This document shows, one piece after another, positions 5,669 to 58,592 of a DNA stretch of 64,000 nucleotides (its first letter is position 1; each line of letters opens with the position of its first letter). The translations under genes and the position numbers were made by a program. A model generated the notes under the pieces. That model saw only the letters and a program-made list of their open reading frames with translations. It did not search any database and was not told the DNA's origin. Source of the DNA: Clostridiales bacterium (lineage in GTDB: Bacteria; Bacillota; Clostridia; Lachnospirales; Lachnospiraceae); NCBI GenBank assembly GCA_021199255.1, contig JAJQIK010000045.1, forward strand, positions 169,572 through 233,571, given 5' to 3'.

Positions 5669-5776
5669 GTCATTTTAGTCACTTTACGGTCGTCCCTGCC
5701 GATGCGGGTCTGTCCGCCTGGCTCGCCGTTTGCGGGAATCAATCATAGAGCGTAATGCTTTGGAATGGAGGAAATC

Positions 5777-6094
5777 ATGGAGCACAAATTTACAACTGCT
5801 AATTTTAACAGTGAGGTATTGGAATCTGAGGTACCGGTATTGGTGGATTTTTACGCGGACTGGTGCGGCCCGTGTAAGATGATGGCGCCTGTTGTGGCCG
5901 CTTTGGCGGAGAAGTACGAGGGTAAGGTCAAAGTGGGAAAATGTAATATCGATGAGGAAGAGAGCCTTGCGGGAACCTATCGCGTTATGTCGATTCCCAC
6001 GATGAAGCTTTTTGTGAACGGGGAGGCAGCAGCCACTGTGGTAGGAGCTGTGCCTCAGGAAGAACTGGAAGCGGAAATCCGCAAGGTTCTATAG
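5777..6094 (+). CDS. trxA: Thioredoxin
   Basis: A 105-residue cytoplasmic thioredoxin with the redox motif W29-C-G-P-C33-K and the cis-proline loop MSIPTMKLF. It reduces protein disulfides and is recycled by thioredoxin reductase. The start ATG 5777 is chosen because GGAGG lies about six bases upstream; the upstream ATG at 5765 would overlap that site. About 100 bases separate it from trmB, with no gene and only weak dyads. Confidence 0.95.
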   Translation: MEHKFTTANFNSEVLESEVPVLVDFYADWCGPCKMMAPVVAALAEKYEGKVKVGKCNIDEEESLAGTYRVMSIPTMKLFVNGEAAATVVGAVPQEELEAEIRKVL

Positions 6095-6105
6095 TAAACA
6101 TTGAT

Positions 6106-6123
6106 GCGCTGCTGACGCAGCGC
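6106..6123. repeat. Perfect GC-rich hairpin after trxA
   Basis: GCGCTGC and GCAGCGC form a seven-base-pair stem closed by TGAC, 11 bases after the trxA stop. There is no T-run, so it is not a typical intrinsic terminator; it may stabilise the transcript end. Confidence 0.55.
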
Positions 6124-6130
6124 GCCACCA

Positions 6131-6297
6131 AGTATGAAAGTCGATTGCTCCGCTCTGACGAGCTCCCGCAATCGCCGCCGATATTCGCAATCCGCACTAT
6201 CGTGCTACTTGCTCATACCGGCTTAGTCGTCGAATATCCAGCCATCTGGTCATGCAAGCATGCCCAGCCGTCTGTCTATTCACGACACTTTCATAGT
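6131..6297. other. Intergenic hairpin chain A (possible structured RNA)
   Basis: A 167-base stretch with no gene that folds on paper as a closed multi-helix unit. An outer imperfect stem pairs AGTATGAAAGTCG (6131-6143) with its near complement at 6283-6297. Inside are CGATTGC/GCAATCG (6142-6148 with 6168-6174) containing GCTC-TGAC-GAGC. Next are GATATTCG/CGAATATC (6180-6187 with 6231-6238) containing GCAC-TATC-GTGC, and CTGG-CATGC-AA-GCATG-CCAG (6246-6267). The open frame across it shows no family resemblance. It could be an RNA or a small non-autonomous repeat. Confidence 0.5.
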
Positions 6298-6319
6298 AAG
6301 TGGGAAGGACGAGCTTCTT

Positions 6320-7504
6320 TCAGGCCGACTGTCCGTAGGGCTCATGGGAGTAAAGAAGCTTCAGAATAATCGGCGTGGCGATGGAGGATACCAGGATTAA
6401 AAGAATGACCGCCGTGAAGTAATCCGCAGTCAAAAGCCCTGCGGCAAGACCCTTTTGCGCTACGATCAGCGCCACCTCTCCTCTGGTCATCATTCCCACG
6501 CCGATTTTAAGAGAATCCGTTCCGTTAAATCTGCATATTCTGGCAATCATCCCGCAGCCGACAATTTTGGCAAGAAGCGCTACCAGCACAAAACAAATAC
6601 AGAAGGCAAACAGCCTGCCGTTCATGGAATCAAAGGAAGTTTTCAGGCCGATGCTTGTGAAGAAGATGGGGCCGAAAATCATATAGGAGCTGACGTCGAT
6701 TTTACGCTCTATGTATTCGTTATCGCTTAAATTGCACAGTACGATACCGGCGATATAAGCGCCGGTGATATCCGCGATGCCGAAATATTTCTCCGCGATG
6801 TAGGACAGGGCGAAGCAAAACGCCAGACTGACGATAGGAATCCTTCTGGTATGCGGATAGCGGTTGTCCAGTTTGAGGAAAAATTTAAAAATAAGAAATC
6901 CGCCGAGAATGGCAATCGCAAAGAAAGCGATGGTTTTGACAATCACCATACCGGGGTGGGACGTAGGATTCTTAAATCCGATTACAAAGGTCAGCACAAT
7001 GATACCGATTACGTCATCGATAATAGCCGCGCTGACAATGGTGGTTCCGACCTTGCTTTTAATCTTCCCTAATTCCTGCAGGGAAGCCACGGTAATACTT
7101 ACGCTGGTGGCGGTCATGATGGTTCCGATAAAGACCGCTTTGTAGAAATTTTCGCTTCCCCAGGGAGCTGCGCCGTAAAACGCCATATATAATATCGTAC
7201 CGGAAACCAAAGGGATCAGAACGCCCATGCAGGCAATCAGAAAAGCCACGGGTCCCGTCTTGATCAATTCCTTGAGATCTGTTTCCAAGCCCACGGCGAA
7301 CATGAGAATAATAACGCCGATTTCCGCCATCTGCGCAATAAAATCAGACTGGCCGACCCAGCCTAAAACGCAGGGGCCGATCAGCAGGCCGGCAATAATC
7401 TGGCCGACGACCTGCGGCGCTTTGCATTTTCTGGCTGCGATACCCAGCACTTTCGCAAAAAACAGGATAATAGCAAGATCTCTTAATACTTCATAGGCTT
7501 CCAT
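6320..7504 (-). CDS. Kef/CPA2-type cation:proton antiporter
   Basis: A 394-residue polytopic membrane protein of the monovalent cation:proton antiporter-2 family. It starts with MEAYEVLRDLAIILFFAKVLG and runs through about 12 hydrophobic segments with typical family signatures: QVVGQIIAGLLIGP near residues 32-45, FAVGLETDLKEL near 75, and AAIIDDVIGIIVL near 160 with the conserved acidic pair in a membrane helix. It ends soon after the last helix, so there is no TrkA-N regulatory domain. It exchanges Na+ or K+ for H+ across the cytoplasmic membrane; the ion cannot be decided. It is a single-gene unit with its own strong promoter. Confidence 0.9.
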   Translation of the reverse strand: MEAYEVLRDLAIILFFAKVLGIAARKCKAPQVVGQIIAGLLIGPCVLGWVGQSDFIAQMAEIGVIILMFAVGLETDLKELIKTGPVAFLIACMGVLIPLVSGTILYMAFYGAAPWGSENFYKAVFIGTIMTATSVSITVASLQELGKIKSKVGTTIVSAAIIDDVIGIIVLTFVIGFKNPTSHPGMVIVKTIAFFAIAILGGFLIFKFFLKLDNRYPHTRRIPIVSLAFCFALSYIAEKYFGIADITGAYIAGIVLCNLSDNEYIERKIDVSSYMIFGPIFFTSIGLKTSFDSMNGRLFAFCICFVLVALLAKIVGCGMIARICRFNGTDSLKIGVGMMTRGEVALIVAQKGLAAGLLTADYFTAVILLILVSSIATPIILKLLYSHEPYGQSA

Positions 7505-43119: not shown

Positions 43120-44841
43120 ATGGAGAAGACATGGTGGAAGAGCAGTGTGGTATATCAGATTTATCCAAGGAGCTTTTGCGACAGCAATGGGGACGGAATA
43201 GGCGATATCAATGGAATCAGGTCTAAATTACAGTATTTAAAGGAGCTGGGGATTGATGTGATATGGTTAAGCCCGGTCTATCAGTCTCCCAATGACGATA
43301 TGGGATATGATATCAGCGACTACCGGGCTATTATGAAGGAATTTGGAACGATGGAGGATTATGACCATATGCTGGAGGAGGCTCATGCGCTGGGGATTAA
43401 GGTGATGATGGATCTGGTGGTAAACCATACCTCCGACGAACATGCGTGGTTTGTGGAGAGCCGGAAGTCCAAGGACAATCCGTATCGCGATTTTTATATC
43501 TGGCGGGACGGCAGGGACGGGAAGGAGCCGAATAACTGGGGTTCCTGCTTCGGCGGCTCCGCGTGGAAATATGATGAGGCGACGGAACAGTATTATCTGC
43601 ATCTGTTTTCCCCGAAACAGCCGGATCTGAACTGGGAAAATGAAGCGGTCAGAAAAAGCGTATATGATATGATGACTTGGTGGTGCGATAAAGGGGTCGA
43701 CGGATTTCGGATGGATGTAATCAGTATGATTTCCAAGGTACAGGCGCTTCCCGATGGGCAGGCCGGCGTAAGCGGCTATGGAGATTTTGGGCCGTACTGT
43801 ATAAACGGGCCGAGGGTTCATGAATTTTTACAGGAGATGAACAGGGAAGTTTTGTCTAAATATGACCTGATTACCGTAGGCGAATGTTCCGGCGTTACGA
43901 TAGAGGAAGCGAAGAAATATGCCTCCTGCGCCGGAAACGAGCTGAATATGGTATTTCAGTTTGAGCATATGGATCTGGACGGCGGAGAGACCTTTAAATG
44001 GAATCACCGGAAGATTAAACTGTCGGAGTTAAAGGCCGTTATGAGTAAGTGGCAGACGCAGCTACAGGGAAAGGCATGGAACAGTCTGTACTGGTGTAAT
44101 CACGACCAGCCCAGAATGATTTCGCGTATGGGAGACGACAGCCCGGAGTATCGTGAGAGGTCGGCCAAAATGCTGGCCACGTGTCTCCATATGCTTCAGG
44201 GAACTCCTTATATTTATCAGGGGGAAGAGCTGGGAATGACCAATTATCCCTTTACCTCGCTGGACGAATTTAGGGATATTGAGAGTATCAACGCTTATCA
44301 TGAGTTGACGGAGGGAGGAATTTTCTCCCCCGAAGAAATGTTTGGTTATATCAGCTACAAGGGGCGGGACAACGCCCGGACTCCCATGCAGTGGGACGAC
44401 GGCGGGCAGGCTGGCTTCACAACGGGAACGCCTTGGATAGCGGTGAATCCCAATTATAAGGAGATTAACGCAAAGGAACAGATGGGGAGGGCGGATTCCG
44501 TATTTCATTATTACCGGAAGCTGATTGCCCTGCGCAGGCAGTACGATATTATTGTGTATGGGGACTATGAACTGCTTTGCCCGGACAGCGAGGAATTATA
44601 TTCCTATCTGCGCGCCTATGGGGAGCAGAAGCTTCTGGTGCTCTGCAATTTTACTTCGGCGGAGATTCCCTATGAATTTCCCAGGCTGCTTCAGAACCGG
44701 AAGGGTGAGCTCCTGATTTCCAATTATAACAGGCAGCAGGCCGCATCGTCCGGGGTTCTGGCGCCTTACGAGGCTATGGCGCTTCTGTTTGGAAGCGCAG
44801 GTTCGGACGATACGGCGGAAACCGGCCTTTACCATAGCTGA
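43120..44841 (+). CDS. malL: GH13 oligo-1,6-glucosidase / alpha-glucosidase
   Basis: A 573-residue cytoplasmic GH13 subfamily 31-type enzyme. It opens with WWKSSVVYQIYPRSFCDSNG and DGIGDINGI, the calcium-site segment typical of the group. Catalytic residues are Asp199 (GFRMDVISM), Glu255 (TVGECSG) and Asp329 (CNHDQPR). DLNWENEAVR and the isomaltase-type GVTIEEA after the acid/base fit an enzyme that cuts alpha-1,6 bonds of isomaltose or limit dextrins; activity on sucrose or trehalose-6-phosphate relatives is possible. AAGGAG before ATG 43120 decides the start. Its end overlaps the last antiporter gene by 13 bases on the opposite strand. Confidence 0.9.
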   Translation: MEKTWWKSSVVYQIYPRSFCDSNGDGIGDINGIRSKLQYLKELGIDVIWLSPVYQSPNDDMGYDISDYRAIMKEFGTMEDYDHMLEEAHALGIKVMMDLVVNHTSDEHAWFVESRKSKDNPYRDFYIWRDGRDGKEPNNWGSCFGGSAWKYDEATEQYYLHLFSPKQPDLNWENEAVRKSVYDMMTWWCDKGVDGFRMDVISMISKVQALPDGQAGVSGYGDFGPYCINGPRVHEFLQEMNREVLSKYDLITVGECSGVTIEEAKKYASCAGNELNMVFQFEHMDLDGGETFKWNHRKIKLSELKAVMSKWQTQLQGKAWNSLYWCNHDQPRMISRMGDDSPEYRERSAKMLATCLHMLQGTPYIYQGEELGMTNYPFTSLDEFRDIESINAYHELTEGGIFSPEEMFGYISYKGRDNARTPMQWDDGGQAGFTTGTPWIAVNPNYKEINAKEQMGRADSVFHYYRKLIALRRQYDIIVYGDYELLCPDSEELYSYLRAYGEQKLLVLCNFTSAEIPYEFPRLLQNRKGELLISNYNRQQAASSGVLAPYEAMALLFGSAGSDDTAETGLYHS

Positions 44842-46961
44842 AAGACATCTCTCAGGAAAAGGTAAATCACGGTAAAGATCAGGCCAATACAGAATTGCAG
44901 CAGGCCGAAGGACAGGCTGCGGTTAATTACCGCGCTATTTTCTGACCACTGCTGATGCCACATTGCGAATTTATGATCGTAATCTGTCTTGCGGGGCTGC
45001 TTTTTGCGGAATGTCTTATTGCCCAGCTTTTGTAATCCTTCCGCTATGGAAGCGCACATATGACTCAGTTGAGTACCTTCCGCAAGCTCCTGGGGCAGTT
45101 TACTGTCCCGATAGATGGTTTTGCGCAGCAGGACAACCAGGGTATCTACGAGGCTGTCCAGAATACGGCACAGGAAGCCGAACACGGCGGGCAGAATTTT
45201 CAGCAGCAGGGGGCGGTAGACCATATCCTCCAGGTCAAGATATCGATACCAGCGGTTGATATAGCTTCTGGAAGCGCTTCCGGCGCCGTCCTTTTTCATC
45301 AGCCATAGGCGGACAACGAGGAGGTAGACCAAGGCTCCGATAACAAGAGAGATAGCCGCGCCCTTTAAATTGGTCAGGGAGAAATAGGATACCTGGGGTG
45401 CGGCTGCTTTTACCTGCATAAATCCCTGTCCTATGTCGGCCAGCCCGTTCATAATGACGCCGGGGAAGAATCCCATGAGCGGCAGCAGGGTGGCGCTGAC
45501 GCCCAGCGCAAAAGCGCTGGCTTTATTCATGTATCTGCCCTTCAGGGCGTCGTAGGCTGCCTGTACGGATTCGTCCCGGTTCTTTTCGAGGAAAATACAG
45601 ACATAAAGCTTGGTCATATAGGCCACGGTCAGACCGCCGCTGATCAGGAAAATCCACTCGATCGCTTTCACCCAGCCGACGCTGAATATGCCTGTAGCAG
45701 CGCCTTCTCTCAGCAGTTCCAGATATTCCACAATACTTTCATGGATCAGCGTTTTGCTGATGTAACCGTTCCAGAGGGGCACGCCGCCGATACCGAGGGC
45801 GCCCATCAGGAAAATATAATTCAGCAGGGGCTTTTTGCGCCCGAAACCACGGATATCATTCAGGTCGAGTTTATGCACGTTCATAAAGATCACTCCGGCG
45901 GCCATAAAGAGCGCCAGCTTAATCAGGGAATGATTCATCATATGAAGCATACTGCCTCTTACCGCCAGAAAATTTTCCTCTCCCAGCAGGCCGGACATTC
46001 CTACGCCCACCAGAATAAATCCGATCTGGGAAACGGAGGAGCAGGCAAGGGTTCTTTTCAGATCCACAGAGAACAGGGCAAGCACCGCGCCGACCACCAT
46101 TGTGCACACGCCGATGATCAGGATTAAGCTTCCCCAGGAGGTACTGCCCAGGAAAAGATAGGACGTCAGGATCAAAATACCGTACATTCCCGCCTTGGTC
46201 AGAATACCGGACAGCAGCGCCGACGCCGGAGCAGGAGCTACCGGATGCGCCTTAGGAAGCCAGATGTGCAGGGGAAAAGCGCCCGCTTTAGCACCAAAGC
46301 CAAACAGCATACAGATTCCTGCGATCCAAAGTCTGACGGTTTCCGTGCCGGAGAGATCGAGTCGGCTATAGGCGCCTGTCAGTTCCGTAAAGAATAAGGT
46401 GCCGGTCACGTCATACAGCAGGAAAATCCCCATCAGCATGACAAGACCGCCGATGATTGCCACGGCCAGATAAGTTTCCGCAGCCCGCAGAGATTCTTTT
46501 CGTTCATCATGGGCAACCCATACATAAGAGGTAAAGGACATCATTTCAAAGAAGATAAAGGTGGTATAGAAGTCTGCGGAGAGGAATACCCCTTCCGTGG
46601 CTCCTAAGGTCAGCAACAGGAACAGATAGTATCGGTTCCTGTTGTGATAATGCGAGAAATACTCCCTGGAAAAGAGCGTACTCATAAACCACATAAACGC
46701 GGCGATCATTCCGTATACGGCGCGGAACCCGTCTATGGTAAAGTGCAGGCCCATGCCGCAGACATAGGGGATTTCTGCAAGGGTTTCCGGAGCGCCGGCG
46801 GTCAGAACCTGTATCAATAAATATACGCACAATCCGAAGATAACGCCTGTGACCACATTGGCCAGACAGCTTCTGGCCGCCTTGTGGAAACGTCCCAGAA
46901 GGTAGCAGAGGATTGCCGATATCATAGGCAGAAAAACAACGGTATAAATAAGTGTATTCAT
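44829..46961 (-). CDS. NuoL/MrpA-like proton-translocating subunit
   Basis: A 710-residue polytopic membrane protein, the last gene of the antiporter operon. The core (about residues 90-410) is the complex I antiporter-like fold: SADFYTTFIFFEMMSFTSYV with the conserved helix-5 Glu, and FGFGAKAGAFPLHIWLPKAH with the central lysine and the family PVAPAPASALLSG. A C-terminal extension with two further helices and a charged loop (RKTIYRDSKLPQELAEGTQL) makes it longer than its three paralogues and like NuoL or MrpA in size. It should move H+ or Na+ as part of the complex. It lacks the MrpA C-terminal DUF4040 domain, which is a separate gene at 52763. Confidence 0.88.
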   Translation of the reverse strand: MNTLIYTVVFLPMISAILCYLLGRFHKAARSCLANVVTGVIFGLCVYLLIQVLTAGAPETLAEIPYVCGMGLHFTIDGFRAVYGMIAAFMWFMSTLFSREYFSHYHNRNRYYLFLLLTLGATEGVFLSADFYTTFIFFEMMSFTSYVWVAHDERKESLRAAETYLAVAIIGGLVMLMGIFLLYDVTGTLFFTELTGAYSRLDLSGTETVRLWIAGICMLFGFGAKAGAFPLHIWLPKAHPVAPAPASALLSGILTKAGMYGILILTSYLFLGSTSWGSLILIIGVCTMVVGAVLALFSVDLKRTLACSSVSQIGFILVGVGMSGLLGEENFLAVRGSMLHMMNHSLIKLALFMAAGVIFMNVHKLDLNDIRGFGRKKPLLNYIFLMGALGIGGVPLWNGYISKTLIHESIVEYLELLREGAATGIFSVGWVKAIEWIFLISGGLTVAYMTKLYVCIFLEKNRDESVQAAYDALKGRYMNKASAFALGVSATLLPLMGFFPGVIMNGLADIGQGFMQVKAAAPQVSYFSLTNLKGAAISLVIGALVYLLVVRLWLMKKDGAGSASRSYINRWYRYLDLEDMVYRPLLLKILPAVFGFLCRILDSLVDTLVVLLRKTIYRDSKLPQELAEGTQLSHMCASIAEGLQKLGNKTFRKKQPRKTDYDHKFAMWHQQWSENSAVINRSLSFGLLQFCIGLIFTVIYLFLRDVFQLW

Positions 46962-46972
46962 ACGGAGCCTCC

Positions 46973-48436
46973 TTAATATAAGCCAGCCGCCACGTCATAG
47001 AGGAAATCCATCAGCGGCTGGGAGTAAACGCCAAACAAAATAATAAAGAAAGTAAATACAAACAGCGGAACCAGCATTTTCCAGTTAGGGTCTTTTACGC
47101 CGTCCAGGGCGCTGTAGTCAAAATCCTTGCCGGGAAAGAAAGCGCGTACTACGATGGACAGCATATAGATAGCCGTCAGCAGTGCGGAAACCAGCAGACA
47201 GGCGATTCCGAAATAGGCTATCGTGTTGCCGCTTTCCACCGCGGCGGAGGCGAGATTCCATTTACTGATAAAGCCCGCCAGTCCGGGAACGCCCATCAGG
47301 GCGAAAGCGGATATGGTAAAGACGCCGAATATGCAGGGCATTTTATAGCCCATACCGTCTAATTCATGTACATAATTTTTGCCGGTCTGATGAATAATAG
47401 CGCCCGCGCAGAAGAAGGAGCTGATCTTCATAACCGCATGAATCACCAGATGAGACAGTGCGCCTGCCAGTCCCAGAGGCGTCATAATGACGGCGCCGAA
47501 GAGAATATAAGACAGGTTGCTGATGGTGGAGTAGGCCAGACGTCTTTTTAAGTGCGTTTCCTTTACGGCGCGGCTGCAACCATATACAATCGTAAACATG
47601 ACAATAATCATGACGGTGGTCTGCGCCCAGGTGCCCTGGAGGAAATCCGTACCGAAGCTGTAATAGGTCAGACGTATAATGGCGAAAGCGCCGGATTTGA
47701 CCACTGCCACCGCGTGGAGCAGGGCGGTAACCGGGGTAGGCGCAACGCCCGCCTGGGGCAGCCATGAGTTGAACGGGCAGACTGCCGCTTTCACGCCGAA
47801 GCCCATAAACGCTATTACATATATCAGCAGTAGAATATTAGTCTTATCTCCGATTTTGGCAGGGTCAAGCACACCGCCGAAAATGAAATTATTGGTGGAG
47901 CCGTAAACGATAATCATAATCAAGCCGAGGAAAGCGAAAGCCGCGCCGCCTAAGGAATAATACAGATATTTCCGGCTGGCGAGAATGGCTTCTCTGGTCA
48001 GCGTGTGCATGACTAAGGGAACCGTAACCAACGTTAATAATTCATAGAAAAAGTACATGGTCAGCAGGTTGGCGGCCAGCGCAATGCCGAGCGTTACGCC
48101 GTAGGTCATGGTATAGAATAAAAAGAAAATCTTTTCATGCTCCTCTTTGGTCATATACTCGAACGCATACAGAGTGGCAAAGGGCCATAACGCGGAAACC
48201 AGTCCCGCAAAGACCATGCTCATACCGTCTACGCGGAAGCTGATGTTCAGGTTTCCCGTAAAGTGAGCCAGTACAAAGGCGCTGTCGGAATGATGCAGCA
48301 GCAGATACCATACAAGGATACTGTTGAGAACAACCGCACATTCCAGAAAGATTTCCCAGTGGCTTCTCTTTTTAAAGGGAAGCAGCGGTACTAAAATGCC
48401 GGCTATCAATGGGAGTAAAATTACTAAAATAATCAT
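46973..48436 (-). CDS. MrpD/NuoN-like antiporter subunit (copy 3)
   Basis: A 487-residue membrane protein with about 14 helices. The helix-5 region is TMYFFYELLTLVTVPLVMHT and the lysine helix is FGVKAAVCPFNSWLPQAGVAP, followed by TPVTALLHAVAVVKSG, the usual fold of MrpD/NuoM/NuoN. It lies 11 bases upstream of the large NuoL-like gene with GGAGG-type spacing. Confidence 0.88.
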   Translation of the reverse strand: MIILVILLPLIAGILVPLLPFKKRSHWEIFLECAVVLNSILVWYLLLHHSDSAFVLAHFTGNLNISFRVDGMSMVFAGLVSALWPFATLYAFEYMTKEEHEKIFFLFYTMTYGVTLGIALAANLLTMYFFYELLTLVTVPLVMHTLTREAILASRKYLYYSLGGAAFAFLGLIMIIVYGSTNNFIFGGVLDPAKIGDKTNILLLIYVIAFMGFGVKAAVCPFNSWLPQAGVAPTPVTALLHAVAVVKSGAFAIIRLTYYSFGTDFLQGTWAQTTVMIIVMFTIVYGCSRAVKETHLKRRLAYSTISNLSYILFGAVIMTPLGLAGALSHLVIHAVMKISSFFCAGAIIHQTGKNYVHELDGMGYKMPCIFGVFTISAFALMGVPGLAGFISKWNLASAAVESGNTIAYFGIACLLVSALLTAIYMLSIVVRAFFPGKDFDYSALDGVKDPNWKMLVPLFVFTFFIILFGVYSQPLMDFLYDVAAGLY

Positions 48437-48452
48437 AACTGCTTCTCCTTTC

Positions 48453-49925
48453 TTACAATATCGCGCTGATGATCCCGGTCAGGGAATCTATCAACGGGGT
48501 TGGGAATAAACCGATTAAAACTGACAGGATTGTCAGAATTAGTAACGGTATGGTCATCAAGCGGGACGGCTCCTGTTTCCTGAAATGCTCATAGTCATAA
48601 TCTGCACCGGGGAAAAAGCCCTGAATGGTAAGCGGCAGCAGATAACCCGCAGTCAGCAGGGCGCTGACAAGCAGGATAACGGGGCCAAGCCAAGAAAATA
48701 CCGGAATGGCGCTCTTCAGGGAGCCGCTGGCCAGATACCATTTGCTGATAAAGCCTCCTGTGGGCGGAATACCGATCAGCCCCAGCGAGACAATCGTATA
48801 GCACCACATGGTCAGAGGCATTTCCTTGCCGATGCCGCGAAGCTCGTCTACCCGGGTTTTGCCTGTGGTATAGATGATAGCGCCGGCGCAGAGGAACAGG
48901 GTCGATTTGATAAATCCGTGAGCCAGCACATGGAGAAGGCTGCCCGTTACGGAATCGGCGTCCATAAGCGCAAGTCCGAATAAAATATAGGAAAGCTGAC
49001 TTACGGTAGAGTAGGCAAGCCGCTTTTTCAGAACTTTTTCACGGTATGCGAGCATGGAACCCATAAATACGGTAATCAGGGCAAGAGTAAGCCATGCGGT
49101 CTGAACCCAGGTGCCCCGCAGGAAGGAAGCGCCGAAAATGTAATAAACCAGGCGGACAACCGCCAAAATCCCCGCCTTGACGATTACGGCGGAAAGAACC
49201 GCAGATGCCGGGGCGGGAGCCACCGGGTGAGCGGTGGGCAGCCATGCGTGCATGGGGAACATTCCCGCTTTTACACTGAAGCCCAGAATCATGACAAAGG
49301 CGGCAATCAGTAAAAGCCCGGTGTGTCCAGCCGCAGAGGCAGAGTTCAGTACGCCTCCCGCGGTAAAGGTTAAGCTGTCGCCGTAATGATAAATAAAGTA
49401 AAGGCCAAACAGGGCGGCATAAGCGCCGCATAAGGAGTAAAATAAGTATTTCAGGCCTGCCATAATGGCCTCCCTGCTGCCGTTGTGTAATACCAGGGGC
49501 ATGGAGGATAAGGTCAGGATTTCAAAGAACAGGTAAAAAGTGATCAGGTTGCCCGCAAAGCACAGTCCGTTCAGCACACCGAATACGATCAGATAATAAC
49601 CGTAATATCGCTTCTCCTTGGTTTCATGCTTCATATACTCGAAGGAAAAGAAACCGGCACAGAGAAAAATGATCATGGTCATGGCGGCGAAGACGACGCT
49701 GACGGCGTCAATCTTAAAGCAGATCGGCAGCGACCGGGTCAGGTGAAACAAGGTAAAATCCACGCCATATGCCGTAAACAGCGCGGAAACGACCAGTAAG
49801 CCGGTGAGCGTCAGACAGACGCCCACGGTAATCAGCAGATTCCGCCTGCCGGCGTTCTCCCTTTTGATGAAAAGGCAGACTCCGGCGAAAATCGGAAAGA
49901 ATATAGATAAAAGAATCAGATACAT
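48453..49925 (-). CDS. MrpD/NuoM-like antiporter subunit (copy 2)
   Basis: A 490-residue paralogue of its neighbours. ITFYLFFEILTLSSMPLVLH gives the helix-5 Glu, and LGFSVKAGMFPMHAWLPTAH followed by PVAPAPASAVLSAVIVKAG gives the lysine helix and the proline-rich loop. ISKWYLASGSL is near the C-terminus. Gap to the next gene is 16 bases. Confidence 0.88.
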   Translation of the reverse strand: MYLILLSIFFPIFAGVCLFIKRENAGRRNLLITVGVCLTLTGLLVVSALFTAYGVDFTLFHLTRSLPICFKIDAVSVVFAAMTMIIFLCAGFFSFEYMKHETKEKRYYGYYLIVFGVLNGLCFAGNLITFYLFFEILTLSSMPLVLHNGSREAIMAGLKYLFYSLCGAYAALFGLYFIYHYGDSLTFTAGGVLNSASAAGHTGLLLIAAFVMILGFSVKAGMFPMHAWLPTAHPVAPAPASAVLSAVIVKAGILAVVRLVYYIFGASFLRGTWVQTAWLTLALITVFMGSMLAYREKVLKKRLAYSTVSQLSYILFGLALMDADSVTGSLLHVLAHGFIKSTLFLCAGAIIYTTGKTRVDELRGIGKEMPLTMWCYTIVSLGLIGIPPTGGFISKWYLASGSLKSAIPVFSWLGPVILLVSALLTAGYLLPLTIQGFFPGADYDYEHFRKQEPSRLMTIPLLILTILSVLIGLFPTPLIDSLTGIISAIL

Positions 49926-49937
49926 GTCGCCGCCTCC

Positions 49938-51431
49938 TTACGCAAACATGGCAAGACCCTGTTCGATCATATCTACGATCGGCTGGGAGTTAATGCCTAA
50001 GATAATATTCAGAACGATAAATAACACCAACACAACGGCATATAATTTCATATCCTTGAAGGTTACGCTGGGATAAGCTGTTGCTTCCACCGGCGTATAG
50101 ATCCGAATTACCGTTTTCATAAAGTAAATCGCATTTAAGATCGTGCTGACGCCTAAAACGATCAGCGCGGGCAGCATCTTGCCGTTTATCTGAACCGCGG
50201 CCTGTGCAAACAGCAGCTTACTGATAAAACCGGAAAACAGCGGTATGCCCACCATGGAGAGAGAGCCCACCGTAAAGGTAACGCCCGCCCATTTGTTGCG
50301 GTACGCGGAGCCGGTCAATTCAATAAATTTACGGCTGCCGCCGGAAACGTCGGTCAGACCGATGGCGGCGATAAAGAGCAGGGATTTGGTAGCCGCGTGG
50401 GAGAGCATATGGAACACACTGGCCACCATACCGTACTGGGTGCCCATGCCAAAGCCCATATAAATGTACCCGATCTGTGCTACCGAGGAGTAGGCGATCA
50501 TTCTGCGGATATCATTTTCCCAGATAGCGCTCAGGGAGCCGAAAATCATACCCATTAAACCGAAAACAAACAGCACGTCAATTATTCTTGTGTTAATAAA
50601 GATATCAAACCCAATGACGCGGTAGATAATCTTAATCAGAAGAAAAATGTAGCCCTTGGATACCAGGCTGGACAATATGGCGGCGGAGGATACTGTGGAG
50701 TAGCCGTAGGCGTCAGGCAGCCATGCATGGAACGGGAATAAGGCGCTCTTAATGCAAAGCCCCACCGTCATCAGGGCAATGGAAACAATCAGGGGGATAT
50801 TGTACTCACCCTGAGCCACGATGGCGGCGATAGACTCCTTCATATTACTCATAAGAAGATGTCCGGTCAGGTCATACAGCATACATAAGCCGAGCAGCAG
50901 CAGGCCGGAACCCAGAAGGCTCATAATCATATATCTGACGGCGGCTTCAATGGTTCTGCCCACCTGCCGGATCATAATCAGGCCGCAGGCGGATATGGTG
51001 TTGATCTCCACGAAAACGTATGCCGTAAACATATCGTTGGTATATACCAGCGCCAGCAGGGAGCTTAGGAGAAGATTTGTCAGCACATAGTAAAGAAAAA
51101 CCTTGTTTTCCTCCACCTCCTTCACCAGCTTATGCTGGCCGCCTAAAAGGGACAGCAGCATAATGATACAGAAAAATAACGCCATTCCCGCTTCCAGTAC
51201 GCCGGCACGGATTTCGTTGCCCCAGGGAGCGGGGAACTTACCCATGACATAGACGAAGGATTCGCCTGTGGAAAGCGTGTAAAACAGGGTGCAGGCGCTT
51301 AAAAACGTTACAATCAGCAATAAAGCGATATTAATCCATCTGGCGGTTCTGCCTCTCAGCCCGGAGCTGATAATCCCCGCGAACAGGCAGAGCATGATGG
51401 AGATACAGGGAAAGTTCCGTATGAAATCCAT
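49938..51431 (-). CDS. MrpD/NuoM-like antiporter subunit (copy 1)
   Basis: A 497-residue paralogue. DMFTAYVFVEINTISACGLI carries the helix-5 Glu and LCIKSALFPFHAWLPDAYGY the lysine helix. It is the first of four antiporter-like subunits after the MrpC gene, in the position of MrpD/MbhH. The start codon directly abuts the mrpC stop. Confidence 0.88.
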   Translation of the reverse strand: MDFIRNFPCISIMLCLFAGIISSGLRGRTARWINIALLLIVTFLSACTLFYTLSTGESFVYVMGKFPAPWGNEIRAGVLEAGMALFFCIIMLLSLLGGQHKLVKEVEENKVFLYYVLTNLLLSSLLALVYTNDMFTAYVFVEINTISACGLIMIRQVGRTIEAAVRYMIMSLLGSGLLLLGLCMLYDLTGHLLMSNMKESIAAIVAQGEYNIPLIVSIALMTVGLCIKSALFPFHAWLPDAYGYSTVSSAAILSSLVSKGYIFLLIKIIYRVIGFDIFINTRIIDVLFVFGLMGMIFGSLSAIWENDIRRMIAYSSVAQIGYIYMGFGMGTQYGMVASVFHMLSHAATKSLLFIAAIGLTDVSGGSRKFIELTGSAYRNKWAGVTFTVGSLSMVGIPLFSGFISKLLFAQAAVQINGKMLPALIVLGVSTILNAIYFMKTVIRIYTPVEATAYPSVTFKDMKLYAVVLVLFIVLNIILGINSQPIVDMIEQGLAMFA

Positions 51432-51806
51432 TTACAGCCCCTCCCTTTTTAATGAAGTAGAAATCTCGTCCAGATCCAGCGTATGATAACGCCTGTACAG
51501 ACGGATCGTTAACGCCAGCATTAACGCGCTGACGGAAACGGATACCACGATACCGGTCAGCACCAGACCGCTGGGAACCGGATTGATATAGGCCTCCACG
51601 CTGGTTACGCCGTCCGTCACGATAGGAGCCACACGCCCCTCGATATAGCCTTTTTCCGCCAGGAACAGATAAATCGCGGTGTCCATGATATTAAGGCCTA
51701 TAATCTTCTTAATTAAATTAGACTGTAATAGTAGATTGCCAAAGCCGATACCGAACAGAATCATGGCAACCGCTTCGCCGTAGTTGGTCAATAAGTTCGC
51801 GCCCAT
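51432..51806 (-). CDS. mrpC: MrpC/NuoK-like subunit
   Basis: A 124-residue protein with three transmembrane helices: NYGEAVAMILFGIGFGNLLL, IKKIIGLNIMDTAIYLFLAE and VLTGIVVSVSVSALMLAL. This is the NuoK/MrpC fold. The segment between helices 2 and 3 (EGRVAPIVTDGVTSVEAYIN then PVPSGLVLT) is typical of MrpC/MbhG. It abuts its neighbours on both sides. Confidence 0.9.
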   Translation of the reverse strand: MGANLLTNYGEAVAMILFGIGFGNLLLQSNLIKKIIGLNIMDTAIYLFLAEKGYIEGRVAPIVTDGVTSVEAYINPVPSGLVLTGIVVSVSVSALMLALTIRLYRRYHTLDLDEISTSLKREGL

Positions 51807-51807
51807 T

Positions 51808-52770
51808 TTACAGCCCTCCTCTTCTGAATAATGCGTAGAATGCGTACATGGTGCAGGCCACCTCCAGCCCCACGCAGATATTAATGGGCAGGATGATGCC
51901 GCCGCTTAGGATATGTCCGGCGATTCCCAGCGGAATATGATTCTCGATGCCGTTAGCCCCTGTCATATAGAAATAAGTACCGATCAGGCCGTACATACAC
52001 AACGCGGTTATTTTCGCGATTTTATAAACGTGCTCATTGAAAAATTCCTGCGTTTTCTTAAAGCCGAAGGAGCATACATACAGAATCAGCCCGGCGCCTA
52101 TAATAGCGCCGCCGGAGAAACCGCCTCCCGGAGACAAGTGCCCGTTTAAAATAATATAAATGCCGAAGATAAAAATGATCGGGCAGAGGACGAAAGCCAC
52201 GCCCTGCAGGATCATATCGTTTTTAGGCTCAAAACGTCGGTCGTTCTGCACTTCCTGTTTCTTTAAAAGCTCGTCGTCGATCATCAGAAGAATCATAACG
52301 CAGCAGGTGGCGATAAACAGCACGTTGGTTTCGCCAAAGGTATCAAAGGCCCTGTAGGTCAGAATCATGCCGGATACAATATTGAGCGCGCCGGTTTCCT
52401 CTAACCCCTGTTCAATATAACGCTCGGCCACAGTATTGCTGGCAGGGTTGGAGGCGTCGCCGGTAGGCGGCAGCCAGGATACGGTCACCAGCAGCAGCAC
52501 AACCAGCGCGATACAGAACAGAAGGGCGGCCGCCTTATAAATCCGGTAGAAGAGAAAGAGCAGCTTGTTATGTTTGGTATCATAGACCTTATCCCGAAGC
52601 ATCTGCGCTTCGCTCATCCGTTCCACAATCGTAGCTTCCGGCACAACCTTTTCCTTCTGAGGCTGCATTTCTACTTCTCCCAGATAGGGGTCCTTTTCGC
52701 CGGACAGCCAGCGGAAGAACCGGAAAGAGCCGGTTTTTTCATATTCGTCCTTAGATTTTAATTTACTCAT
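51808..52770 (-). CDS. MbhE/MrpB-like fusion subunit
   Basis: A 320-residue subunit. A soluble charged N-terminus of about 75 residues (MSKLKSKDEYEKTGSFRFF) is followed by a hydrophobic helix and the MrpA-C/MbhE-like part (GALNIVSGMILTYRAFDTFG, NVLFIATCCVMILLM). Next comes an MnhB/MrpB domain with GVAFVLCPIIFIFGIYIILN and the hallmark GHLSPGGGFSGGAI. Two normally separate subunits thus appear fused. Start ATG 52770 is chosen because GGAGCAG precedes it; it overlaps the end of the upstream gene. Confidence 0.8.
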   Translation of the reverse strand: MSKLKSKDEYEKTGSFRFFRWLSGEKDPYLGEVEMQPQKEKVVPEATIVERMSEAQMLRDKVYDTKHNKLLFLFYRIYKAAALLFCIALVVLLLVTVSWLPPTGDASNPASNTVAERYIEQGLEETGALNIVSGMILTYRAFDTFGETNVLFIATCCVMILLMIDDELLKKQEVQNDRRFEPKNDMILQGVAFVLCPIIFIFGIYIILNGHLSPGGGFSGGAIIGAGLILYVCSFGFKKTQEFFNEHVYKIAKITALCMYGLIGTYFYMTGANGIENHIPLGIAGHILSGGIILPINICVGLEVACTMYAFYALFRRGGL

Positions 52771-53050
52771 GTTGGTTCTGCTCCCCCTTCTCCTCTTTCT
52801 TTTGATCCTCTTCAACGCGGATCGCCTGAATCTTCTTGAGCGTGGCGAAGAAGAGGACGCTTGTCACCCCGGCGCCCACGGCGGCCTCCGTAATCGCTAA
52901 GTCCGGCGATTCCAGACATACCCAGAGAATGGACATGATCAGGCTGTAGGACATATAAATCAGAATAGAATTTAAAAGGTTCTTGGACAGACTGACCGAG
53001 ATTGCGCAGACAATCAGGAATAATAATAAAATATACTGGAAAACGGTCAT
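52763..53050 (-). CDS. DUF4040/MbhD-like subunit
   Basis: A 95-residue protein with three short helices (YILLLFLIVCAISVSLSKNL, ILIYMSYSLIMSILWVC and AVGAGVTSVLFFATLKKI) around SPDLAITEAAVGAG, the hallmark of DUF4040, the domain normally found at the MrpA C-terminus or as MbhD. It overlaps the mrpG stop by four bases (ATGA), so the genes are coupled. Confidence 0.88.
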   Translation of the reverse strand: MTVFQYILLLFLIVCAISVSLSKNLLNSILIYMSYSLIMSILWVCLESPDLAITEAAVGAGVTSVLFFATLKKIQAIRVEEDQKKEEKGEQNQHE

Positions 53051-53457
53051 GACAGCTCGCCTCCTATCGTCTGGTCTGCTTGAACGGCAGAAGCGTCAGC
53101 CTCGGCGAGCTCTGCCTCCAAATCCTTCAGATCGCTATAAATCGTACAATGTGCCTCCAAATTATCATTCGTGGCAACCTCCAGCCTGGATACCACATGG
53201 GAGGATACCGGAGAAGTAAACCACAGAAAACAAACGATCAGCATAAGCTTCAGGGTAGTGAAGTTCAGCCCTGAAAAGAACATCAGTCCCACCAGACAGG
53301 CGCTGATGCCTAACGTATCGCCCATGGCGGCGGCGTGCATTCTGTTTAAGACATATGAAAAATGAAACACACCGAATATCTCCGTAAAAAAGATTACCAG
53401 CCCGCATATCAGAAACGCGCTTCCGATTATGAGCCTGATCCAGTCAAAGATTTCCAT
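53047..53457 (-). CDS. mrpG: MrpG/MnhG-like subunit
   Basis: A 136-residue protein with three helices. MEIFDWIRLIIGSAFLICGL starts the first and RMHAAAMGDTLGISACLVGL is the MnhG signature; FTSPVSSHVVSRLEVATND follows. The C-terminal ~30 residues are acidic and cytoplasmic. ATG 53457 follows AGGAGG and overlaps the mrpF end by 14 bases. Confidence 0.88.
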   Translation of the reverse strand: MEIFDWIRLIIGSAFLICGLVIFFTEIFGVFHFSYVLNRMHAAAMGDTLGISACLVGLMFFSGLNFTTLKLMLIVCFLWFTSPVSSHVVSRLEVATNDNLEAHCTIYSDLKDLEAELAEADASAVQADQTIGGELS

Positions 53458-53788
53458 CAGACATACCTCCTTCTTCCGTATCCTCTGCTTCCTTGCGTTT
53501 TTCTTCATAGATACCGATATATACCTTAGACAAAACCACCACTGCCAAAAAGCTGATCATGGCATAGATCAGGCAGACGTCGACCAGATATCCTTCGTTC
53601 AGCATCAGCGCCAGAACCGAAATCATAACCATAACCATTGTGCCCATCATATTGACCGACATCAGGCGGTCGGCAACCCGCGGCCCCCTTACGGCGCGGA
53701 ACAGGCAGGCAACCAGCATCAGTGCCAGTATAATCAGTACGATAATATAGATATAGTGAAGTATTGTAGGAATCATTTGCTCACTCAC
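53444..53788 (-). CDS. mrpF: MrpF/MnhF-like subunit
   Basis: A 114-residue protein with three helices. It contains FRAVRGPRVADRLMSVNMMG, the MnhF signature, and YLVDVCLIYAMISFLAVVVL near the end. It overlaps mrpE by eight bases and mrpG by 14. Confidence 0.9.
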   Translation of the reverse strand: MSEQMIPTILHYIYIIVLIILALMLVACLFRAVRGPRVADRLMSVNMMGTMVMVMISVLALMLNEGYLVDVCLIYAMISFLAVVVLSKVYIGIYEEKRKEAEDTEEGGMSDGNL

Positions 53789-54248
53789 CTACCCTTTCTA
53801 TTCGTTCCAATAGCTGTACAAATATGGAGGAATCGATTCCTCTGGCCAGCTCCTTATCCAGACAGTGTACCGTGTACTCGTCGTCTTCCAGGGATACGGT
53901 AATGGTTCCAGGCGTCAGGGTGATGGAATTGGCCAGAAGCACCCTGGCGAACCGGGTATGCAGGTTGGTTTTGAAATGAATTACCGCCGGTTCCAGATCA
54001 TATTTGGCGGAATAAACCATTTTAAACACCGCGCCGTTGGCTTTCAGGATTTCCAGGATTAAAACGATAAGGTAATGGATTACCAGGAAGGATTTTTTCA
54101 ATAAAAGGATATCCATCTGCGGCCTGTAACCCATGAATTTGCATATAAACCAGTAAATCAGCCCCGCGATGACCACACCGAACGCAGCAATTTCCAAAGT
54201 AAACTGCCCATTAAAGATAATCCATATCAGAAAAAAAATGATATACAT
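53781..54248 (-). CDS. mrpE: MrpE/MnhE-like subunit, first gene of the operon
   Basis: A 155-residue protein with two N-terminal helices (MYIIFFLIWIIFNGQFTLEI, AAFGVVIAGLIYWFIC) and a third at HYLIVLILEILKAN. The soluble end has HTRFARVLLANSITLTPGTI followed by TVSLEDDEYTVHCLD, the MnhE signature. GGAGGG precedes ATG 54248. The order E-F-G-DUF4040-E/B-C-D resembles membrane-bound hydrogenase Mbh modules and some clostridial Mrp operons more than the Bacillus mrpABCDEFG order. Confidence 0.9.
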   Translation of the reverse strand: MYIIFFLIWIIFNGQFTLEIAAFGVVIAGLIYWFICKFMGYRPQMDILLLKKSFLVIHYLIVLILEILKANGAVFKMVYSAKYDLEPAVIHFKTNLHTRFARVLLANSITLTPGTITVSLEDDEYTVHCLDKELARGIDSSIFVQLLERIERVGE

Positions 54249-54742: not shown

Positions 54743-54839
54743 ATAATTTGCCTTATGAGAAAGTCGGCAATCGGGAACCAGTTTGCATAGAGGACGAGGT
54801 GCCTTTTGAGATACCGGATAGCTGGGAGTGGGTGCGGCT
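54743..54839 (+). repeat. Inverted repeat IR1, left copy (silent hsdS side)
   Basis: 97 bases that match 58309-58405 in inverted orientation with three mismatches by eye. It codes for NLPYEKVGNREPVCI and the PFEIPDSWEWVRL segment before the first target-recognition domain. Homology stops abruptly on both sides. Confidence 0.9.
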
Positions 54840-55373
54840 TGGCCAGATTGTATTTAATCATGGTCAGAAAAACCGGAAACAGATTTTTGTTACATTGACA
54901 TTGGTTCAATAGATAATAAGAATCAACGACTTAATGCAGATGAAACAATTCTACCAGCCGCTAATGCACCATCACGAGCAAGGAAAATTGTTGAGTATAA
55001 TGACATAATCTACTCGACGGTTCGACCGTATTTACACAATATGTGTATTATTGATCGTGAATTTAGCTTAATGCCTATAGCAAGCACGGGATTTGCGGTT
55101 ATTGCCTGTCATGCTGAATTTTTAAACGAGTTTCTTTTTTACTATATGATGGCTCCAGATTTTGATTCTTATGCCAATGATACTGACAATGCGAAGGGAG
55201 TAGCATATCCAGCAATAAACGATGAGCGTCTTTATAGAGCATTGATACCACTTCCCCCCGTTGCAGAACAATATCGGATAGTGGAAAAAATTAGGGCGCT
55301 TATCCCCTATATTAAGAAATATGACCAGGTTGAAGCTTGCCTAACAAAAATGAACGAGTTGTTCCCCGGCAAA

Positions 55374-55615
55374 CTCAAGAAATCCATCTTGCAGCTTGCC
55401 GTTCAGGGGAAACTTGTCCCGCAAGACCCGAACGATGAACCTGCCTCCGTTCTGTTAGAGCGTATCCGTGCAGAGAAGGAGCAGCTTATCAAGGCAGGCA
55501 AGATCAGGAGGGACAAGCATGAATCCGTCATCTACAGACGGGATAATTCTTATTATGAGATGATCAACGGTGTTGAGCGGTGCATAGATGATGAGATACC
55601 GTTTGAGATACCGGA
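55374..55615 (+). repeat. Inverted repeat IR2, left copy
   Basis: 242 bases that I read as identical, in inverted orientation, to 57541-57782. It codes for the central conserved region between the two target-recognition domains. Confidence 0.92.
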
Positions 55616-56166
55616 TTCATGGTGTTGGACACGTTTATCCAACATTGTATCTACCCTGGGTGATGGAATACATGGGACTCCTGATTATGATGTAAATGGA
55701 GTTGTTTATTTTATAAACGGCAACAATCTCTCTGATGGCAGTATCATAATAAAGGATGATACAAAAAAAGTTTCAAAATACGAAGCAGAAAAGCACAGAC
55801 GTGTCCTCACCAGTAATAGTATTTTAATCAGCATTAACGGAACAATCGGGAATATTGCATTTTATAAAAACGAAGATATTATTCTTGGCAAAAGTGCATG
55901 TTTCCTTAATGTAATACCAGACATGTCAAAATATTATTTAAAGGTATTATTCGAGAGTGATTATTTCTTAAAATACGCTCTTAAAATTGCAACAGGAACT
56001 ACGATTAAGAATGTGCCACTTGCAGGTATGAGAAATTTTTTAGTACCGATTCCACCACTGTCAGAACAGCCCCGAATTGTAACAAAAATTGAAGAACTGC
56101 TTTCAATGATAAAAGGTCTGTAATAACTTTTTAAGATACAATCATAGCGGAAGGAGGTCTTTCGCT

Positions 56167-56976
56167 ATGATAAATAAAAAAGAATTTGAAAGACACTTGA
56201 GAGCAACGAACCTCTCAGAAAACACGATCTCTTCCTATATGTTCGCTGTAAAACAGTTCGATGAACAGTACGGGGAGGTCACCAAGAAGAACCTGCGGGA
56301 GTACAAGGTCTGGCTAATTGAAAGCTACAAGCCGAAGACGGTCAATCTGCGGTTGCGAGCGATCAACTGCTACCTTGAGAGTGTGCGCAAAGAGACATGG
56401 AAGTTACCGTTTGTTCGTGTACAGCAGAAAGTGTTTCTTGAGAATGTAATTAGCGAAGCTGATTATGCTTATTTCAAGAAATGTTTGAAGCGGGACAATG
56501 AATTATTTTGGTACTTCGTTATCCGATTTCTGGCCGCCACCGGAGCCAGAGTAAGCGAACTGATTCAGATCAAGGTCGAACACATCAAATTAGGGTACCT
56601 GGACTTGTACTCCAAGGGAGGAAAGCTGCGGAGGATTTACATCCCCAAAGCCCTCCAAGAAGAAGCCCTTTCCTGGCTGGAAGACAAACACCAAGAGAGC
56701 GGCTTCATTTTTTTGAACAAGTATGGCAACCGTATCACGACAAGAGGTATTTCCGGCCAATTAAAAAAGCTGGCTGTTCGCTATGACATTGACCCGGCAG
56801 TGATCTATCCCCATTCGTTCAGGCATCGTTTCGCAAAGAGCTTCCTTGAGCGTTGCAACGACATTGCATTCCTCGCTGATCTTATGGGCCACGAAAGCAT
56901 TGAAACCACCAGAATTTATCTGAGGAAAACCGCCACGGAGCAGCGGGAAATCGTTGATAAAATCATAGACTGGTAA
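56167..56976 (+). CDS. Tyrosine recombinase (probable hsdS invertase)
   Basis: A 269-residue XerC/D-like integrase. The N-terminal SAM-like core-binding domain (about residues 1-85, with NTISSYMFAVKQFDEQYG) precedes the catalytic domain. Catalytic residues visible are Arg in GARVSELIQIK, His-x-x-Arg in HSFRHRFAKSF, His in GHESIETTRIY and the tyrosine in the same motif. GGAAGGAGG precedes ATG 56167, only 43 bases after the silent hsdS cassette. It lies inside the segment bounded by IR1 and IR2, as in phase-variable Type I loci such as pneumococcal SpnIII, and is the likely enzyme for the inversions. Confidence 0.93.
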   Translation: MINKKEFERHLRATNLSENTISSYMFAVKQFDEQYGEVTKKNLREYKVWLIESYKPKTVNLRLRAINCYLESVRKETWKLPFVRVQQKVFLENVISEADYAYFKKCLKRDNELFWYFVIRFLAATGARVSELIQIKVEHIKLGYLDLYSKGGKLRRIYIPKALQEEALSWLEDKHQESGFIFLNKYGNRITTRGISGQLKKLAVRYDIDPAVIYPHSFRHRFAKSFLERCNDIAFLADLMGHESIETTRIYLRKTATEQREIVDKIIDW

Positions 56977-57026
56977 ATCAAAGGCGTATGCAGTCGTGAT
57001 GATTGCATACGCCTTGTGTTCACACA

Positions 57027-58592
57027 TTACATTTTATTGCAAAATAGAACCAACTGGTCAACCTTTTTCACAATTCTGACTTGCTCCGCATATGGAGGAA
57101 GGACAATCAACGTATTTGCAATGTCCCTCATTACCCAGTTTTTATTACCAACGCCTCGTGTATTCTCTGCTGCTTGCTTTTGAACAAGGGGAGAGTTTAT
57201 CTCATACATCAGAAACCTATTGAAAATTTCGCTTTGATTAAATTTCAACAGAGCAACACTTACAAATAGAGAAAATTCTTGCGTTGTTTCAACAATGGCT
57301 GGTATACCCGTTGTTCCGACTTTAGTAAGCAATAAATCTCCAAATTCCGGATTACATCTTGCATATAAGAGTCTATGTTCATCGCTTGTGATGTATTTGC
57401 AGTTATCAAAACATAGCTTACCAGAACTTACATCCTTAACAGAGATAAACGGTACTCCAGCATTGACGTATTTAGGTGTAGAATGCGTACCGTCGCTCAA
57501 CTTCGTCAATAAACAACCAAGCCTACACCAACTCCAGTTCTCCGGTATCTCAAACGGTATCTCATCATCTATGCACCGCTCAACACCGTTGATCATCTCA
57601 TAATAAGAATTATCCCGTCTGTAGATGACGGATTCATGCTTGTCCCTCCTGATCTTGCCTGCCTTGATAAGCTGCTCCTTCTCTGCACGGATACGCTCTA
57701 ACAGAACGGAGGCAGGTTCATCGTTCGGGTCTTGCGGGACAAGTTTCCCCTGAACGGCAAGCTGCAAGATGGATTTCTTGAGCTGTTTAGAGAAGCCAGT
57801 GTTCAAGCTGTCCAAAGTTTTAGATGCTTGTGTATATTTATCTGTGAGTGGTTTGATGGTTTTTATTTTTTCAACAATTCGTATTTGCTCATCAAAGGGC
57901 GGGAGGGGGAACAACAAAGCATGAATAGCATTAGCGGAAAGTCCTTGGATACCGATACCCTTTCCACCAATCCAGCCAGCGTGCTTGTACAGATAAAACA
58001 AATAATAAAAGTATTCCGTACAAAGAGGCACATATGCACGCAAACGGTGTATATGGTTTTGAATGCAGATATTGAAATCAAAATTCCATATTGCCGCTCG
58101 GCCTATGTCTCCTCCTTCACAAACGAGAAGGTCGCCTTTGGTTGCGGTGCATTTTTCTATTTCTGGTTCGGTGAAATACATTTCTCTCACTGTATCCAGC
58201 TCAAAACGATTCCAATATAGATTTGAGGTTGTTATATATTTTAATAGCTGGCCAGAACGATTGGATGAGTTAAGTGCTTTCCCTGTATTATGCCAGAACA
58301 AATCACCTAGCCGCACCCACTCCCAGCTATCCGGTATCTCAAAAGGCACCTCGTCCGCTATACAAACGGGTTCCCGATTGCCGACTTTCTCATAAGGCAA
58401 ATTATCAGCACCACGGAAGATAACAGAGGGATTCTTTTCCTTTTTAATCTTACCTGTCTTGACCATTGCCGCCTTTTCTGCCAGGATGCGTTCCAGCAAT
58501 ACAGAAGCCGGTTCATCATTTGGGTCTTGCGGCACGAGCTTTCCCTGGACAGCCATCTGCAAGATTGAATTTTTCAACTGTTGTGCTGTCAC
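57027..58592 (-). CDS. hsdS: Type I restriction-modification specificity subunit (expressed copy)
   Basis: A 521-residue HsdS that sets the DNA sequence recognised by the M2S methylase and R2M2S2 nuclease. A short N-terminal conserved helix region (LKNSILQMAVQGKLVPQDPN) is followed by target-recognition domain 1 (PDSWEWVRLGDLFWHNTGKA to PPFDEQIRIVEKIK, about residues 90-245). The central conserved region (LKKSILQLAVQGKLVPQDPN) repeats the N-terminal one. Target-recognition domain 2 is about residues 345-515 (WSWCRLGCLLTKLSDGTHST to PPYAEQVRIVKKVDQL). It starts four bases inside the yhcG-like gene end (ATGA) and so is translationally coupled. IR1 lies at the border of recognition domain 1 and IR2 in the central region. 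Confidence 0.95.
   Translation of the reverse strand: MTAQQLKNSILQMAVQGKLVPQDPNDEPASVLLERILAEKAAMVKTGKIKKEKNPSVIFRGADNLPYEKVGNREPVCIADEVPFEIPDSWEWVRLGDLFWHNTGKALNSSNRSGQLLKYITTSNLYWNRFELDTVREMYFTEPEIEKCTATKGDLLVCEGGDIGRAAIWNFDFNICIQNHIHRLRAYVPLCTEYFYYLFYLYKHAGWIGGKGIGIQGLSANAIHALLFPLPPFDEQIRIVEKIKTIKPLTDKYTQASKTLDSLNTGFSKQLKKSILQLAVQGKLVPQDPNDEPASVLLERIRAEKEQLIKAGKIRRDKHESVIYRRDNSYYEMINGVERCIDDEIPFEIPENWSWCRLGCLLTKLSDGTHSTPKYVNAGVPFISVKDVSSGKLCFDNCKYITSDEHRLLYARCNPEFGDLLLTKVGTTGIPAIVETTQEFSLFVSVALLKFNQSEIFNRFLMYEINSPLVQKQAAENTRGVGNKNWVMRDIANTLIVLPPYAEQVRIVKKVDQLVLFCNKM
57541..57782 (-). repeat. Inverted repeat IR2, right copy
   Basis: Partner of 55374-55615, the same length of 242 bases, within the central conserved region of expressed hsdS. 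Recombination here swaps only target-recognition domain 2. Confidence 0.92.
58309..58405 (-). repeat. Inverted repeat IR1, right copy
   Basis: Partner of 54743-54839, within expressed hsdS before target-recognition domain 1. Recombination here inverts about 3.7 kb and swaps both recognition domains. Confidence 0.9.

Follow-up and report, generated by a model that had tools for sequence, protein, structure and literature searches.

Type I restriction-modification (R-M) systems in which hsdS DNA inverts are a kind already widely reported (PMC7394358), also among gut invertons (PMC11892184), and inverting loci make up 3.9% of type I systems according to PMC7394358. In Streptococcus pneumoniae, the tyrosine recombinase PsrA is described as inverting DNA at a 15-bp repeat, IR1, and at the longer IR2 and IR3 (PMC7096588, PMC4948785). 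The pneumococcal accounts do not agree. The first knock-out study reports that only IR1 inversion was lost without psrA (PMC4948785), while another report has rearrangement proceeding without any known site-specific recombinase (PMC6620402). The role of the recombinase is therefore less than certain, and in the locus described here it may be needed at one repeat pair or at both. We found no paper on hsdS inversion in Lachnospiraceae in the open-access literature.

This locus, from a member of that family, lies in a stretch of 64,000 nucleotides that was analysed as a whole (the window) and that forms the end of its contig, in a genome of 3.08 Mb and 93 contigs. It is, with good confidence, an inverting type I R-M locus of the SpnIII/cod kind, inversion itself being predicted from the sequence.

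Organization of the locus

On the minus strand, hsdR, hsdM, a gene for a YhcG/DUF1016 nuclease and hsdS are tightly packed (Table 1), the YhcG gene sharing 8 nt with the end of hsdM and 4 nt with the start of hsdS. The recombinase gene faces hsdS, and beyond it lies a silent hsdS cassette (54743-56123, plus strand) that starts at IR1 and has neither a start codon nor the 62 N-terminal codons. An expressed and a silent hsdS on opposite strands around a tyrosine recombinase were what the original prediction had proposed, and open reading frames and protein families agree with it. HsdR, HsdM and a two-domain HsdS are encoded in one operon with their motifs present, as expected of an EcoAI-type type I R-M system. 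GTGKT, DECH and VEAK in the hsdR product presumably play the roles usual for these motifs. A search for further hsdS copies in the genome at E<=0.001 found none. Directly to the left of the locus, the minus strand carries a run of membrane genes (window 44829-54248) that, judged from their sequence, resemble a multi-subunit Na+/H+ antiporter (Mnh/Mrp-like).

Table 1. Features of the locus, in window coordinates (TRD, recognition domain; IR, inverted repeat; L numbers, loci of relatives)
Feature	Position	Strand	Evidence
IR1, silent arm	54743..54839	+	94/97 to expressed arm
TRD1', silent first recognition domain, frame-broken near its start (about 54843-54900)	54840..55373	+	64-66% to open TRD1 of L079, L065, L066
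IR2, silent arm	55374..55615	+	242/242
TRD2', silent second recognition domain	55616..56123	+	Open frame of 249 aa from IR2
PsrA-like tyrosine recombinase, 269 aa	56167..56976	+	PF00589; conserved residues; 58% to annotated psrA
TRD2, expressed second recognition domain	57027..57540	-	65% to silent TRD2 of L107
IR2, expressed arm, central conserved region	57541..57782	-	242/242
TRD1, expressed first recognition domain	57783..58308	-	67-71% to position-2 domains of L064, L067, L070
IR1, expressed arm (HsdS from residue 62)	58309..58405	-	94/97 to silent arm
Expressed hsdS, GTG start, 521 aa, two recognition domains	57027..58592	-	PF01420 in two stretches; PADLOC Specificity_I, residues 1-521
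YhcG/DUF1016 PD-(D/E)XK nuclease, 338 aa	58589..59605	-	PF06250 E 2.2e-57; PF17761 E 9.3e-50; PADLOC PDC-S02
hsdM, N6-adenine methyltransferase, 495 aa	59598..61085	-	PF02384 E 6.9e-66; PF12161; FACGTGGF and NPPY present
hsdR, EcoAI-type restriction subunit, 784 aa	61089..63443	-	NF046051 1097 bits (cut-off 550); GTGKT, DECH, VEAK present

Inverted repeats

Two pairs of inverted repeats link the expressed and the silent hsdS, one before and one between the recognition domains (TRDs), as is characteristic of inverting loci. Their placement had been foreseen, IR1 where recognition domain 1 begins and IR2 in the region separating the two domains, and the coordinates and identities first given for both pairs proved exact to the base. 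A repeat search extends IR1 to 100 nt at 96% and IR2 to 255 nt at 98%. An exact inverted match of 242 nt is not a product of chance. The recognition domains around it are another matter: no match appeared between any pair of the four in the window at E<=1e-10, TRD1' having been entered without its first part. With identical IR2 DNA lying between domains that do not match one another, shared ancestry alone is an inadequate explanation; the pattern speaks for exchange and not for a recent duplication of the whole gene.

A core for the recombinase at the DNA level was also considered. The candidate, a TTTGAGATACCGGA stretch present in all four arms, resembled the pneumococcal 15-bp IR1 site; we make no claim for it. 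Under codon shuffling, a core of 14-15 nt common to IR1 and IR2 had a P of 0.053 in the window, and there was no excess of core sharing in any of the 21 relatives tested (P 0.19-0.995), 3 of 25 loci having been dropped for fewer than two motifs.

The frame break in the silent cassette

The silent cassette is not one open frame, a point absent from the original prediction: the frame entered from its IR1 arm closes after 55 aa, and what remains of TRD1' is encoded in a different one. When the beginning of TRD1' is aligned with four relatives whose frames are open over that stretch, the break falls just inside the domain, where it amounts to a net length difference within a short stretch. A sequencing error, or a single-base assembly error, could be its cause.

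How unusual this is can be gauged from 28 relatives that have a complete hsdS linked to hsdM, in 24 of which an IR2 pair was found, and in 20 an IR1 pair. The frame leading from IR1 into the partner copy comprises 418-475 open codons in 19 of these 20, against 55 in the window; in the twentieth, L138, the IR1 match covers merely 23 nt and the frame 11 aa. From IR2, all 24 relatives with that pair have an open partner frame of at least 150 aa, and the one in the window runs for 249 aa. Silent cassettes without a start codon do keep long frames in relatives. IR1 pairs were chosen by the number of matches minus three times the mismatches, a rule set after a preference for the longest pair had proved faulty: the latter gave 14 open frames of 18 and had taken cross pairs of IR1 with IR2 in L102, L107 and L117. 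The revised survey also changed the set of loci (HsdS match starting at residue 6 or before, hsdM on the same strand), L133 and L142 being added and L141 removed.

Simulation of the HsdS products gives 521 aa for the arrangement as found, 519 aa with IR2 inverted, 118 aa with IR1 inverted and again 118 aa with both. The length of the single-inversion products is constant at each of the 95 IR1 and 240 IR2 crossover points; the double-inverted state was simulated at one. A full HsdS in every arrangement is a usual, if not strictly defining, property of such loci; in two of the four simulated states here the product has 118 aa, and it lacks a complete recognition domain. The original prediction had counted on four HsdS combinations, and so four methylomes. 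Four arrangements remain possible, yet both of those that use TRD1' would give the short product. TRD1' is probably a null allele, which would give each repeat pair a role of its own.

Orientation and domain exchange among relatives

The alternative orientation, for which a search in related genomes had been advised, occurs among relatives. Of 27 loci that have an HsdS match and hsdM on a single strand, 17 have the recombinase pointing against hsdM and 10 have it pointing the same way, L088 (hsdM on both sides) being set aside. In L138 and L139 its direction may not report a switch, since the silent copy separates it from hsdS there. The recombinase block is inverted relative to hsdM in three close pairs of loci: L065/L066 (82% at the nucleotide level), L074/L077 (92-98%) and L072/L098 (89-90%). 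In the last two the DNA on the hsdM side aligns in the opposite sense (92% and 89%, respectively); in L065/L066 alignment above 80% is confined to the part bounded by the repeats, and the contrast is drawn from the position of hsdM.

Domains have changed place as well. Those expressed in L065 have their counterparts, at 78% and 90%, in the silent ones of L066; conversely, the first domain expressed in L066 matches the one that is silent in L065 (82%). A TRD1 that is silent in L087 is expressed in L093 (98.5% identical), the TRD2 expressed in both being 100% identical. TRD1 of the window, which occupies position 1, resembles position-2 domains (Table 1), and recognition domains have thus moved between positions over evolution. 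The recent or ongoing exchange first proposed from the identity of IR2 gains indirect backing from these orientations and swaps; being comparisons between species, they speak of history, not of rate. Among the fetched loci there was no second assembly of the same species: a pair drawn from the two genome sets was either one record present twice (as with L044/L067) or plainly diverged.

One locus stands apart. In Amedibacillus dolichus DSM 3991 (L088, 1-11594), at a contig end, hsdR and hsdM are found on both sides of the recombinase, in near-identical inverted copies (1591/1594, 924/924 and 652/652 nt). This is either a true inverted duplication or the trace, in the assembly, of both orientations in one culture.

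The recombinase and its spread

The recombinase is 58% identical, over 99% of the query, to WP_000651186.1, annotated as 'tyrosine-type DNA invertase PsrA', from a Streptococcus dysgalactiae plasmid, where its gene lies near an hsdS. R128, K153, H216, R219, H242 and Y251, which we take to be the catalytic residues, are invariant in the 17 recombinase sequences aligned, the window's included. Homology and catalytic residues make it a PsrA-type DNA invertase, of predicted activity.

A match to it exists in 32 of 299 genomes of the family (E<=1e-40) and in 8 of 77 of the genus, the window's own included, the other seven being 35-48% identical. A scan of named genomes returned at least 517 matched stretches, and the best 80 loci include, judging from record titles, Lachnospiraceae, Erysipelotrichaceae, Gastranaerophilales, Pasteurellaceae, Bacteroidales, Treponema and others. 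Because the spread of the recombinase is patchy, it suggests horizontal transfer. We set aside the idea of a phage or plasmid locus: matches at E<=1e-30 are few (2 of 50,697 phage records and 17 of 72,556 plasmid records, with one viral contig carrying the recombinase in a scan of close relatives), and mobility of the window is not shown by them. The contig from a viral collection, IMGVR_UViG_3300029928_000267 (L153), has hsdR, hsdM, and hsdS on both sides of a recombinase 88% identical to ours.

An HsdS match accompanies the recombinase in 45 of the best 80 loci and is absent from the other 35, some of them on short contigs; in a separate set of 20 recombinase stretches, 11 are without one (L046-L055, L060). 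This family of recombinases may also drive other inversions. Those of the eleven stretches without an HsdS match nearby are 66-75% identical to the window's, and in some of the six for which open reading frames were listed the neighbours look, by eye, like surface or polysaccharide genes.

A probable accessory slot

YhcG, which PADLOC files under the candidate PDC-S02, sits in the same slot in two of the best 80 loci (tblastn, 1e-10), L071 and L138, and an operon unique for its YhcG has to be rejected. In the Lachnospiraceae MAG S29_Bin8 (L071), the order R-M-YhcG-S-recombinase is the same, with YhcG and recombinase each 83% identical to those of the window; the contig ends 148 nt before the recombinase, so that a silent cassette cannot be seen. 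The original suggestion that the YhcG operon may be undescribed is weak in view of these two loci, although no paper combining YhcG/DUF1016 with type I R-M was found in open-access full text, judged by title and abstract opening. YhcG appears to be an accessory gene that the operon can do without. In other relatives unrelated genes occupy its slot, RhuM in L093 (7426-8421) and L101 (7342-8337) and a Schlafen/AlbA gene in L118 (10920-12512); in L087 a Schlafen/AlbA gene (5200-6672) lies between hsdR and hsdM.

How the switch may work

In the mechanism that we propose, hsdR, hsdM, YhcG and HsdS codons 1-62 would form a fixed upstream part. The PsrA-like recombinase would swap TRD2 and TRD2' by inverting the DNA that separates the IR2 arms, or replace the whole body of HsdS with the silent cassette by inverting that between the IR1 arms. 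TRD1-TRD2 and TRD1-TRD2' would both be full HsdS proteins differing in their second half-sites; the two TRD1' states would leave a fragment, and R-M would be off. As assembled, IR2 inversion would switch the methylome and IR1 inversion would turn the system on or off. The anatomy of the locus, its repeats, the intact catalytic motifs and the two orientations among relatives can be read directly in the DNA; from there we infer inversion in this organism and action of the recombinase on both pairs.

What the frame break means is a separate question. It might be real and kept: IR2 would then pick between two methylomes, and IR1 would turn the system off in a way both heritable and reversible, with HsdR, HsdM and the YhcG nuclease still produced but no functional HsdS. 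We hold this to be unlikely, if worth keeping in mind. A switch between four specificities, with the break put down to an error of sequencing or assembly or confined to the one clone that was sequenced, is a serious possibility, short of an even chance. An open TRD1' is the rule, the silent frame being open in 19 of the 20 relatives with an IR1 pair, and a net length difference in so short a stretch fits that account, although the break is there in the assembly. Inversion might also have ceased altogether, the silent cassette now degenerating in a locked locus. One silent domain is indeed broken, and with no recombinase above 50% identity in the other 76 genomes of the genus the locus looks like a sporadic arrival; yet IR2 has kept 242 of 242 positions identical despite its unrelated flanks, hsdR, hsdM, hsdS and the recombinase gene are open with their motifs present, and TRD2' is open too. 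Decay of this kind seems very improbable.

The repeats might, finally, recombine by homologous recombination with the recombinase a mere bystander. IR2 is long and identical enough for this, pneumococcal IR2 and IR3 inversions are reported as still detectable without psrA (PMC4948785), and independence of known recombinases is claimed elsewhere (PMC6620402). Against it, the recombinase accompanies hsdS in many phyla, PsrA is stated to invert IR1, IR2 and IR3 in vitro (PMC7096588), and later work cited there has IR2/IR3 inversion strongly reduced in vivo in the absence of psrA; we think this bystander role improbable.

Comparison with known systems

With this locus the inverting type I R-M systems gain a well-preserved member from the Lachnospiraceae. 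What is new is modest: a probable null allele that would give the repeat pairs separable roles, and what the relatives reveal about frames, orientation and the movement of domains. Relatives from several phyla show that the PsrA-hsdS module keeps its silent cassettes in frame and that it occurs in either orientation. The window would offer a simple case in which switching of specificity and on/off switching are separable by repeat pair.

The SpnIII-like design first recognized here is borne out by the two repeat pairs, the expressed and silent hsdS and the four possible arrangements. With SpnD39III/cod of S. pneumoniae, as described in PMC4948785 and PMC7096588, the locus shares hsdR, hsdM, an expressed hsdS, a tyrosine recombinase within the locus (there PsrA) and silent hsdS DNA linked by inverted repeats. 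The pneumococcal locus is described with two further hsdS genes and three repeat pairs (15, 298 and 85 bp), whereas ours has one cassette and two pairs (97 and 242 bp), a YhcG gene between hsdM and hsdS, and a broken frame in TRD1'. Invertons over restriction subunit S genes, enriched near tyrosine recombinases, are reported in gut bacteria as inverton group 145 (PMC11892184), a likeness that does not imply orthology. The four-phase loci of, for example, Streptococcus suis (PMC7394358) have, as here, two hsdS copies, one repeat before the 5' TRD and one between the TRDs, and four arrangements; in contrast to the loci described there, only two of the four would, as assembled, give a full HsdS in the present one.
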